Below are positions 18,532-20,258 of a stretch of 21,308 nucleotides of DNA, piece after piece. The DNA is taken from IMG/VR virus record IMGVR_UViG_3300004448_000624, positions 1 through 21,308 of that record. One strand, 5' to 3'. Position numbers and translations under genes: made by a program. The notes beneath the pieces are model-generated. The model ran no database searches. It was given only the letters and a program-made list of their open reading frames with translations, and was not told the DNA's origin. Each line of letters opens with the position of its first letter. The stretch's first letter is position 1. This DNA comes from a virus.

Positions 18532-18707
18532 TAGTACCACCCTGTATCTATAGCATTATCATTAAACTTGTTTTCCAATGACTGAATTACATTTGCTTTC
18601 ATTTGTATTTCTTCAGGCAGTGAAGTGTTTTCAAGTTTTAAATATTTAATCGCCCAGGCTAATGCTGTGGATTCTTCTTCTGTTAGTTTTAAGTATAGTC
18701 TATGCAT
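18531..18707 (-). CDS. 58-aa helical protein
   Basis: The frame from ATG 18707 to TAA 18531-18533 fills the gap between primase and the 160-aa gene. AAAGGAGAT stands five bases before the ATG. The start overlaps the primase end by eight bases, and the stop overlaps the next start as TAATG. The product starts MHRLYLKLTEEESTALAWAI and ends NAIDTGWY. It is acidic and helical with no motif that I recognise. The close fit of both ends makes it a confident small gene. Confidence 0.8.
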   Translation of the reverse strand: MHRLYLKLTEEESTALAWAIKYLKLENTSLPEEIQMKANVIQSLENKFNDNAIDTGWY

Positions 18708-19488
18708 TTAGTATCTCCTTTATTTGTTTTTCGTTATAGTACTTTAGATCGTCTTCTAGTATCTTGACTTTTGTTTCTACATAATAGTTTAGTTTTTCAC
18801 TTATGTCAAATGATTTTGTTGTAGCGTCTCTGTCAAGAGCAATGATTATTTTCTTGTACTTTTTTTTGAGTATAGGTATGTAAGTCTCAGGTAAACTTGT
18901 ACCCATCAATGCAACTCCTGTGTAAACAGAAGATACTGCACAAGCACTTGCACAATCCTCTACTAGTACTGCTGTATCACTATTGCCACAAGTAAACGGA
19001 TAAGTCTTGCCTGAGTACATATACCATTTTGGATATACCTTTGAGTTTAAAGCACGACCTACTGCACCCATTATCTTTTCTTTTTCTTTTATAAGAAAGA
19101 CTATTCTGTGTTGCTTTACATCATACATAAAACTTGCCTTTGCTTTTTCTTTTGCTTGCATACAATTATTTTTTCTAAGATAATCGTAGCACTTAGGCTC
19201 AGATAAAATAGATATAAAACTACTAGGCACAGCAAATTGCTTTTCTTTTTCTTGCTTTGCTTTGTTTTCTCTAACTACGGTATCTGCCACCTGTTGCATT
19301 GACATCTCCACTTCGTGTTTTCCACGAGCAGAGCATGACGCACTAAAGCAATACCATTTTAATTCTGATTGCTCTCGCTTTACTACAAATGTGTTGGAAT
19401 GATGGCAGAATGGACAATCAAATCTCATGTCCAGATCTCCCTGTGGTATTAGTGTTTTTACTATTGTTAGCTGTTGATTATAATTCAT
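18700..19488 (-). CDS. Stand-alone T7-type DNA primase (zinc finger + TOPRIM)
   Basis: The product makes RNA primers for lagging-strand synthesis. Counting from ATG 19488 (262 aa), a zinc finger is formed by C25/C28 (CPFCHH) and C47/C52 (WYCFSASCSARG). The TOPRIM core has E177 (VEDCASA) and D219-x-D221 (IALDRDA). The T7 gp4 helicase half is absent; helicase is a separate gene downstream. The start is uncertain. ATG 19509 lies upstream of the -10 box of the promoter at 19498-19525. ATG 19488 would give an almost leaderless mRNA but keeps a helix (IVKTLIPQGDLD) that looks genuine. ATG 19428 has an ideal GGGAG eight bases upstream but begins just before the zinc finger. First gene of the replication operon. 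Confidence 0.88.
   Translation of the reverse strand: MNYNQQLTIVKTLIPQGDLDMRFDCPFCHHSNTFVVKREQSELKWYCFSASCSARGKHEVEMSMQQVADTVVRENKAKQEKEKQFAVPSSFISILSEPKCYDYLRKNNCMQAKEKAKASFMYDVKQHRIVFLIKEKEKIMGAVGRALNSKVYPKWYMYSGKTYPFTCGNSDTAVLVEDCASACAVSSVYTGVALMGTSLPETYIPILKKKYKKIIIALDRDATTKSFDISEKLNYYVETKVKILEDDLKYYNEKQIKEILNA
18781..18809 (-). promoter_or_regulatory. Internal sigma70-like promoter inside the primase gene
   Basis: On the minus strand TTGACA (18809-18804) is followed after 17 bases by TATTAT (18786-18781), 11 of 12 consensus bases. It lies inside the 3' part of the primase gene, with the start of the 58-aa gene some 75 bases downstream. It could supply extra transcript for the distal replication genes. 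No inverted repeat is seen over it. A chance match in AT-rich coding DNA is possible. Confidence 0.4.
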
Positions 19489-19497
19489 TGTTTTAGG

Positions 19498-19525
19498 AGT
19501 ATAGCACATATCTATACTTTGTCAA
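19498..19525 (-). promoter_or_regulatory. Strong sigma70-type promoter for the replication operon, with inverted repeat
   Basis: On the minus strand TTGACA (19525-19520) is followed after 16 bases by TATACT (19503-19498). A perfect 7-base inverted repeat, AGTATAG-N7-CTATACT (19498-19518), covers the whole -10 box and most of the spacer, and is a good operator candidate. The box lies just downstream of an intrinsic terminator (19534-19569), so the operon can start afresh here after upstream transcripts end. Predicted start near 19491. Confidence 0.75.
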
Positions 19526-19533
19526 ATAGGCAT

Positions 19534-19569
19534 AAAAAAACGCCCAAGAGGTAATTAATCTCTTGGGCG
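19534..19569 (-). terminator. Intrinsic terminator ahead of the replication operon
   Basis: On the minus strand a perfect 10-bp stem (CGCCCAAGAG pairing with CTCTTGGGCG; arms 19560-19569 and 19541-19550) with a nine-base loop is followed directly by seven T residues (19540-19534). It should stop transcription coming from the early genes upstream, about ten bases before the -35 box of the primase promoter. It is the only clear intrinsic terminator in the window. Confidence 0.92.
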
Positions 19570-19721
19570 CTGTAGTGAGGTGGGGCGATATCTGTAATTA
19601 CTCTGGCAACCTCCCTCAATGTGCTTTGCGTTGCGTTTCCTTTAACTCTCTAGTATTTCACTAGGTAACGAACCCAATGCACACAATGGCTTACACCTGC
19701 AAGACCTAGAGTAGTTAAATA

Positions 19722-19772
19722 AAGTATCTATAGCTAAGATTTTTACCTCTCTTCGCTTGTACATAGATACTT
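19722..19772 (-). repeat. Perfect 10-bp inverted repeat inside the gene-free region
   Basis: Minus-strand AAGTATCTAT (19772-19763) is exactly complementary to ATAGATACTT (19731-19722), with a 31-base loop. The core AGTATCTATG also occurs at the palindrome over the recombination-operon promoter (near 14413-14427). It could be an RNA stem, a protein-binding site, or both. Confidence 0.6.
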
Positions 19773-19850
19773 AACTTAACCTGTAACCCAAGAGCCGAAA
19801 GGAATAGACTCTTGGGTTGAAATCGAGGCAATGTCAGACCTCGAAACTTT

Positions 19851-20258
19851 TTATATTATAGCAGTTTTTTGTGCTTGTTTGCTATAATGATTATACCTAC
19901 CTTCAGTATGATCTAAGTTAGGATTAGGAAAGGGAGGAATACATTCTTCTCTGACTACCCAAAAGTGCTTAGACTTTTTTAAAGCAACATACACTTGCTC
20001 AGGCTCTCCATTCCTAGCACTAGCTATTTCTCGATTAACTAATTTAAACCAATCCGTAACTGCTATTTGTATGCCGTTATAGCGATACTCGCCATCTTCT
20101 TGTTGCTTATGCACACAAAGAGTCCAAAGTTGGGCAAAGTCTCCTGAAGCATGGGAAGCATACTTTATTTCAGAAAAGGTAAAACTTATATCACTACCTT
20201 TATATTCAACATCATCTCCCCATCTTTCAGTATCTTCTGCGTGTCTACGAACCCACAT
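19851..20258 (-). CDS. Unknown early protein, 135 aa
   Basis: The start at ATG 20258 overlaps the end of the 315-aa gene by 14 bases. The protein is aromatic-rich and mixed alpha/beta, with segments SDISFTFSEIKYASHASGDF, LWTLCVHKQQEDGEYRYNGI and VYVALKKSKHFWVVREECIPPF. There is no Cys cluster, Walker motif or membrane segment. It shares a transcript with the 315-aa gene and is followed seven bases after its stop by the first hairpin of the gene-free region. I do not recognise a family. By position it is one of the earliest expressed genes seen here, so host takeover or DNA replication control is possible, but this is a guess from position only. Confidence 0.75.
   Translation of the reverse strand: MWVRRHAEDTERWGDDVEYKGSDISFTFSEIKYASHASGDFAQLWTLCVHKQQEDGEYRYNGIQIAVTDWFKLVNREIASARNGEPEQVYVALKKSKHFWVVREECIPPFPNPNLDHTEGRYNHYSKQAQKTAII

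Follow-up and report, generated by a model that had tools for sequence, protein, structure and literature searches.

A pseudoknotted RNA shared by unrelated marine phages: very likely a new family of non-coding RNA genes

Comparable RNAs and the locus in the window

Among described RNAs, the antitoxins of type III systems (ToxI, CptI, TenpI) and phage pseudo-ToxI are H-type pseudoknots, like the core of the RNA analysed here, and the pseudo-ToxI of phage TE is a documented phage-borne mimic that neutralises a host toxin (PMC5086642). The AbiF RNA, or RCd22 (RF03085), a non-coding RNA of phage regions, provides a precedent for direct neutralisation of a protein, which it achieves by binding (PMC12373285). 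The ornate RNAs GOLLD and ROOL, found in bacterial and phage DNA, are also structured, and their role is unknown or only partly known. The put RNA of HK022 is a structured phage RNA that, like the present one, lies near early genes and terminators; it acts in cis without a terminator of its own.

The present RNA differs from each of these. Whereas ToxI consists of 34-36-nt units in tandem repeats adjoining the toxin gene, the core here spans 60-100 nt in a single copy; the H-type pseudoknot expected of a type III antitoxin is present (crossing helices P1 and P2, by comparison only) and tandem repetition of the pseudoknot unit is not, there being one core per record. No toxin gene was recognised beside the core among the neighbours searched, which encode replication, terminase or unknown proteins, with several small flanking ORFs left unassigned. 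The AbiF RNA is made of hairpin motifs adjoining the abiF gene, whereas the RNA here has no Rfam match; compared with GOLLD and ROOL, it is much shorter, differs in helix order and, again, lacks an Rfam match. Unlike put, it has a terminator at its end, and a separate promoter serves the next gene.

The window, that is, the whole stretch analysed, is a 21,308-base virus record, a fragment of an HMO-2011-type phage. Phages of this type are described as dominant and widespread in the ocean (PMC9038755; the text of that paper, when searched, contained no mention of non-coding RNA). Two early genes, one of 135 aa with its end at 19851 and the primase with its start at 19509, flank a 341-base gap (19510-19850), the sole sizeable internal gap of the window, which no frame of at least 50 aa overlaps on either strand. 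Among cultured records, the primase matches HMO-2011-type phages only; other genes on the minus strand include those for a family A DNA polymerase, with a weak match to a DnaJ-type central zinc domain, and a helicase of DnaB type. The minus strand of the region folds with an MFE of -107.5 kcal/mol (z = -6.27; none of 100 dinucleotide shuffles is equally good), and the excess is weaker on the plus strand (z = -3.80). An earlier sequence-only reading had noticed a non-coding gap of about 340 bases with stems on one strand, and this description held, with hairpins H1, H2 and M4 and a perfect terminator confirmed; it missed the pseudoknot at 19620-19716, which is conserved in other phages, and the modular spread. 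The features, all on the minus strand, are as follows.

19855-19863, minus: extended -10 element TGCTATAAT of the RNA gene, an exact TGnTATAAT; consensus match only, no transcript data
19534-19848, minus: inferred non-coding transcript of about 315 nt (fold z = -6.27), bracketed by promoter and terminator; no transcript data
19823-19844, minus: 5' hairpin H1, UCGAGG/CCUCGA, from the fold and stem reading
19785-19818, minus: hairpin H2, 10 perfect pairs, AACCCAAGAG/CUCUUGGGUU, homologue of the terminator upstream of the primase in L003-L010
19714-19780, minus: long hairpin M4, perfect 10-bp AAGUAUCUAU/AUAGAUACUU inside a longer bulged stem, from the fold and comparison with L052
19706-19716, minus: 5' arm of P0, AACUACUCUAG, supported by covariation; 3 nt at its 5' end are shared with the foot of M4
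19695-19698, minus: 5' arm of P1, AGGU, supported by covariation between lineages
19685-19694, minus: invariant loop L1, GUAAGCCAUU, identical in 21 of 22 distinct cores
19667-19683, minus: 5' arm of P2, UGUGCAUUGGGUUCGUU; P2 is in the MFE structure and its outer part covaries
19663-19666, minus: 3' arm of P1, ACCU, supported by covariation
19644-19653, minus: 3' arm of P0, CUAGAGAGUU, supported by covariation
19620-19637, minus: 3' arm of P2, AACGCAACGCAAAGCACA, outside P1, from comparison of cores
19576-19618, minus: hairpin P3 after the core, outer stem UGAGG/CCUCA, from comparison of members
19534-19569, minus: Rho-independent terminator, 10 bp plus U7, perfect stem CGCCCAAGAG/CUCUUGGGCG
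19498-19526, minus: separate primase promoter, TTGACA-16-TATACT with TG, 11 of 12 consensus matches, downstream of the RNA terminator
18700-19509, minus: DNA primase gene of HMO-2011 type (PHROG 47, 2e-24; tblastn to HMO-2011-type phages), downstream of the RNA

The pseudoknot core and its relatives

Comparison of phages shows that the core (19620-19716, minus strand) is a conserved H-type pseudoknot. Both GUAAGCCAUU and the 5' arm of P2 lie inside P1, and P2 closes beyond P1; because the 3' arm of P2 falls outside P1, the two helices form a pseudoknot. In the window, P2 pairs UGUGC-A-UUG-G-GUU-CGUU with AACG-c-AAC-G-CAA-A-GCACA. The invariant letters of the core are GUAAGCCAUU, GUUCGU and AACGCAACGC. 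Outside P1, half of the lineages have P0, which reads AACU(A)CUCUAG/CUAGAGAGUU in the window, AAGAUAGUAG/CUACUAUCUU in L053, AAGAUAAGGG/CUCUUAUCUU in L059 and AAAUACUAG/CUAGUAUUU in L077. P1 varies as ACUAGGU/ACCUAGU (L080), CCUUGGU/GCCAAGG (L084) and ACUCGuGC/GCCGAGU (L093), and the outer part of P2 as UGUGC/GCACA, UGUUCUUA/UAAGAACA and GUAC/GUAC.

These helices covary. In P0, 49 of 49 cells are paired across four different sequences, with double changes in 6 of its 10 pairs; P1 is paired in 44 of 56 cells and outer P2 in 73 of 81, and double changes are present in these helices as well. Taken together, P1 and P2 are paired in 92.4% of cells (alignment A1), compared with 26-55% when slid, and whole-arm shuffles match the observed pairing in only 1.9% (P0), 0.6% (P1) and 0.4% (P2) of cases. 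It has to be kept in mind that the covariation depends in part on an alignment made by hand from few lineages, with four variants of P0, and that the arms in it omit single bulged bases. An alternative pairing in the MFE structure of the window, GGUCUUGC/GUAAGCC, is not conserved and was rejected.

A k-mer from the core identified L053 and L054, which match the window at E ~1e-19 to 1e-20 in pairwise blastn. Gapped-pattern scans of IMG/VR extended the family to about 35 phage contigs or loci with 22 distinct core sequences; many pattern hits were unrelated sequence and were discarded. As the members were found with sequence patterns, their sequence conservation was partly selected for. The covariance model R1 scores members at 67-94 bits and the best non-member at no more than 15 bits; these scores are not independent because R1 was built from 14 members, in contrast to the pairwise match of L053 and L054, which is independent. 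One core copy is present in each of 34 records.

The core is found in two unrelated groups, HMO-2011-type and HTVC027P/023P-like phages, plus others; the hosts, to judge from the relatives, would be marine Alphaproteobacteria. In HMO-2011-type members (L080, L083, L093, L104, L115, L184, L197), the RNA lies directly or a few genes ahead of the primase. In the second group, the L073 terminase is 61-67% identical to those of HTVC027P, HTVC023P and relatives, L059 shares the gene order of L073, and that of L098 and L116 is similar. L053/L054 and L084 represent other genomic contexts; in L054, the one that extends far enough to show it, the RNA comes after an SSB-like gene (a call made by eye from the protein sequence). 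The core is absent from seven cultured genomes (HTVC027P, HTVC023P, 023Pt_psg01, DSL-LC04, HTVC033P, HMO-2011 and HTVC115P), and blastn produced nothing real, whether the region and three other cores were compared with cultured phages or the region with plasmids. With R1, no match was found in 398 Pseudomonadota genomes, a set without a positive control; a pattern scan of a genome collection gave six hits, all chance matches in unrelated sequence, with a pattern that would miss L093-type cores.

Could the region belong to a known RNA class or encode a protein? Rfam 15 (4227 models) returned no match at the gathering threshold in the window or 14 member loci, and a relaxed search gave only chance hits (E >= 0.55). 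No paper on such an RNA was found in the open-access literature searched, subscription papers and preprints being outside the scope. The sequence-only reading had proposed that the minus strand encodes a new structured RNA of the phage, to be checked by compensating changes in other phages and refuted by a conserved protein frame through the region. Such changes were found in P0, P1 and outer P2, and these homologues, together with the lack of an Rfam match, support the proposal. The protein-frame reading was rejected, given stops in most lineages and no frame common to lineages; only the L059 group has a 93-aa ORF through the core, the sole ORF of note there.

The presence of the RNA is patchy. 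Two nearly identical phages (L001/L051 and L002/L052) retain it; compared with its sister phage L052, the window has 3 changes in 94 positions of the core and keeps the same stems in H1, H2 and M4, with the tip of M4 replaced (18 of 33 positions). The next relatives, L003-L010, have at the same place a single terminator, CCCAAGAG..CUCUUGGGUUUUUUU, together with a frame of 90 aa; therefore, the RNA occupies an exchangeable slot. H2 of the window is the homologue of this terminator, without a U tract. A hairpin at the position equivalent to M4 is present in other lineages, and most other members have GGGG..CCCC-type hairpins at the P3 position. L059, L060 and L066 have identical cores with different 5' flanks. 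The 90-aa ORF of L003-L010 is itself conserved upstream of the primase (MIWERKVRLAEIL...RPFWRK).

A probable gene of its own and the rival explanations

In the window, TGCTATAAT sits 166 nt ahead of the core, with no good -35 element, only a weak one. The start near 19848 is inferred from sequence alone, as are the promoter assignments, which are consensus resemblances rather than mapped starts. The 9-base loop of the terminator exceeds the loop limit of the automated terminator scan. In L084, a TTGACA-16-TAGAAT element, the RNA and a terminator fit within about 230 nt and an unrelated gene comes next; thus, the promoter and terminator expected of a trans-acting phage RNA gene are present by sequence in the window and L084, without transcript data. 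A terminator also follows the RNA in L080. In L093 and L104, the palindrome ACTTAACACGTGTTAAG lies ahead of gene starts and directly ahead of the RNA, behind a terminator-like hairpin, and in L116 and L153 a TTATCCACA..TTGCAATTA..TATATT module precedes the RNA, with a similar module ahead of the next gene. The promoter-type elements of L084, L093/L104 and L116/L153 are, again, resemblances, not mapped starts. Because several lineages give the RNA its own promoter-type element and terminator, it appears to be a gene rather than a primase leader. Of the two possibilities previously raised, the autonomous RNA (about 300 nt) is favoured over the read-through leader by the extended -10, the terminator and the separate primase promoter in the window and by the gene-type elements elsewhere.

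We propose that 19534-19848 is an autonomous non-coding RNA gene of an undescribed family, probably a trans-acting, protein-binding RNA, and assign this reading a probability of about 0.6; that it represents a new family of structured non-coding RNA genes, whatever the function, is very likely. Under this hypothesis, the RNA would be transcribed from its own promoter, end at its own terminator and fold as a chain of hairpins around the pseudoknot, the invariant loop and helix letters of which would bind one conserved host or phage protein; the bound protein would be sequestered or inhibited, which would help takeover or counter-defence early in infection. Letters that stay invariant across unrelated phages, patchy presence, module shuffling and independent transcription, the last inferred, would all be expected if the RNA acts in trans on a conserved partner. 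A decoy or RNA-antitoxin mimic is the most likely among the functions considered but, taken alone and with no partner protein known, falls well short of an even chance. Sequence and comparison establish the family, its covarying helices and pseudoknot topology, the promoter and terminator elements, the occurrence in unrelated phages with its patchiness, and the accompanying modules; transcription itself, action in trans, the partner and the anti-host role are all inferences. The absence of transcript data and of an identified partner limits the trans reading, and the usual location of the RNA upstream of primase and helicase in HMO-2011-type phages, which would suit a cis role in replication, counts against it. 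No complementarity of the RNA to phage messages was found (host targets were outside this search), and an antisense role for GUAAGCCAUU was rejected, complementary sites in phage DNA not being in excess.

The principal rival is a cis-acting leader or antiterminator, put-like or riboswitch-like, in which the RNA would form the 5' portion of the transcript for the replication genes and control the passage of transcription through the terminator into primase and helicase. The RNA indeed lies directly or within about 500 nt ahead of the primase in the window and several HMO-2011-type relatives, and a terminator separates the two in the window, L080, L093 and L104. However, a strong promoter dedicated to the primase follows that terminator; elsewhere the RNA precedes terminase genes, follows the SSB-like gene or precedes unrelated genes; and in L084 the complete promoter-RNA-terminator unit is followed by an unrelated gene. 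A leader of this kind should always precede, and share a transcript with, a single class of gene, which is not the case, as the downstream genes differ and the RNA has its own terminator. We consider this explanation unlikely.

Still less support exists for the other possibilities. A DNA-level element (a replication origin, primosome or packaging site, the strand folding and the RNA reading being incidental) could be suggested by the adjoining primase, SSB or terminase genes and by the DnaA-box-like TTATCCACA near the RNA in the HTVC023P-like group. Yet the minus-sense strand tolerates G-U pairs in P0, P1 and P2, the orientation of promoter and terminator agrees with that strand, where the folding excess is larger, and TTATCCACA also precedes ordinary genes, all of which makes such an element very doubtful. 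A selfish or catalytic mobile RNA (a ribozyme, intron-like or insertion element) is compatible with the location at a terminator of which relatives have only one, the identical cores with different 5' flanks in L059, L060 and L066, and the invariant core letters; against it, no Rfam intron or ribozyme model matches (by model search), each record has one core copy, and no repeated ends or mobility gene were recognised alongside, so this option is highly improbable too. Finally, two terminator-type hairpins of similar sequence in the window might suggest a mere cluster of strong terminator hairpins with chance folding; in unrelated phages, however, the intervening core is conserved and shows covariation, and the homologues already contradict this view, which is virtually ruled out.

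Returning to the autonomous RNA, this is probably a new kind of phage RNA because two unrelated groups have the core, with base changes that match, and no described family does; it is new as an RNA family, and a new variant if 'phage ncRNA' is counted as one kind. A covarying pseudoknot RNA common to unrelated phage groups, each of which treats it like a gene, suggests strong selection and exchange. In practical terms, the function of structured phage RNAs can now be approached with a defined RNA for which compensatory-mutation tests are at hand.

Modules and recurrent elements around the core

Two other crossing-helix elements with covarying helices travel with the core (M1): M2, GGC..GGGUAGU-GCC..AA-ACUACCC, and M3, AAACAC..CGAGGG-[b]..GUGUUU..[b']. 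Both occur no more than about 600 nt from M1, in varying order: they precede it in L080 and L098 and follow it in others. Regular-expression search of the loci examined gave no further occurrences, and neither module has an Rfam match. A bolder reading, which is no more than possible, is a mix-and-match array of pseudoknotted modules (M1, M2, M3 and more), each a sequence-specific inhibitor of a different host factor. If true, the array would be an RNA counterpart of clustered anti-defence protein genes. The intergenic arrays of marine phages may hold many more unlisted RNAs.

Several additional observations pertain to these regions. A perfect palindrome with core AACACGTGTT, often ACTTAACACGTGTTAAGT, recurs before gene starts 10 times in about 8 kb of L093 (1259-9126, minus orientation) and, with the same core, in L104 at 74, 1747, 2655, 2995 and 3296; it is likely to be a phage operator or promoter element. 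In the HTVC023P-like group, repeated promoter-like modules that open with the perfect DnaA-box sequence TTATCCACA lie ahead of transcription units (L098, 3672 and 4380; L116, 11058 and 11513; L073, 2315 and 2945). At 330-620 of L124 (minus orientation), a further structured element occurs twice, as GAGGATGTTGACGT..CACATCCTC and as GAGAGAGTTGCTGT..TACTCTCTC, with an unassigned one in between; these are read as additional RNA modules. An intergenic element of Pelagibacter phage HTVC115P (L209, 2740-2860) resembles an L124 module at minus 540-680 (blastn E 4e-3), with outer stem TTGTGG/CCACAA vs TATGG/CCATA and CAAT/ATTG vs CAAC/GTTG. In L101 (255-400) and L104 (2880-3000), a conserved structured stretch, TAGTGGCTGGTCTGCTGAAAAATTATATGCAG..CCAGACTTGGACACTA, follows the core. 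The 29-nt M4 tip of L051, AGGCAAAGTAGGGTAGAAGTAACCCACGC, recurs nearly unchanged on a diverged stem in the distant phages L078 and L197, and the window and L079 have other tips, a case of tip swapping.
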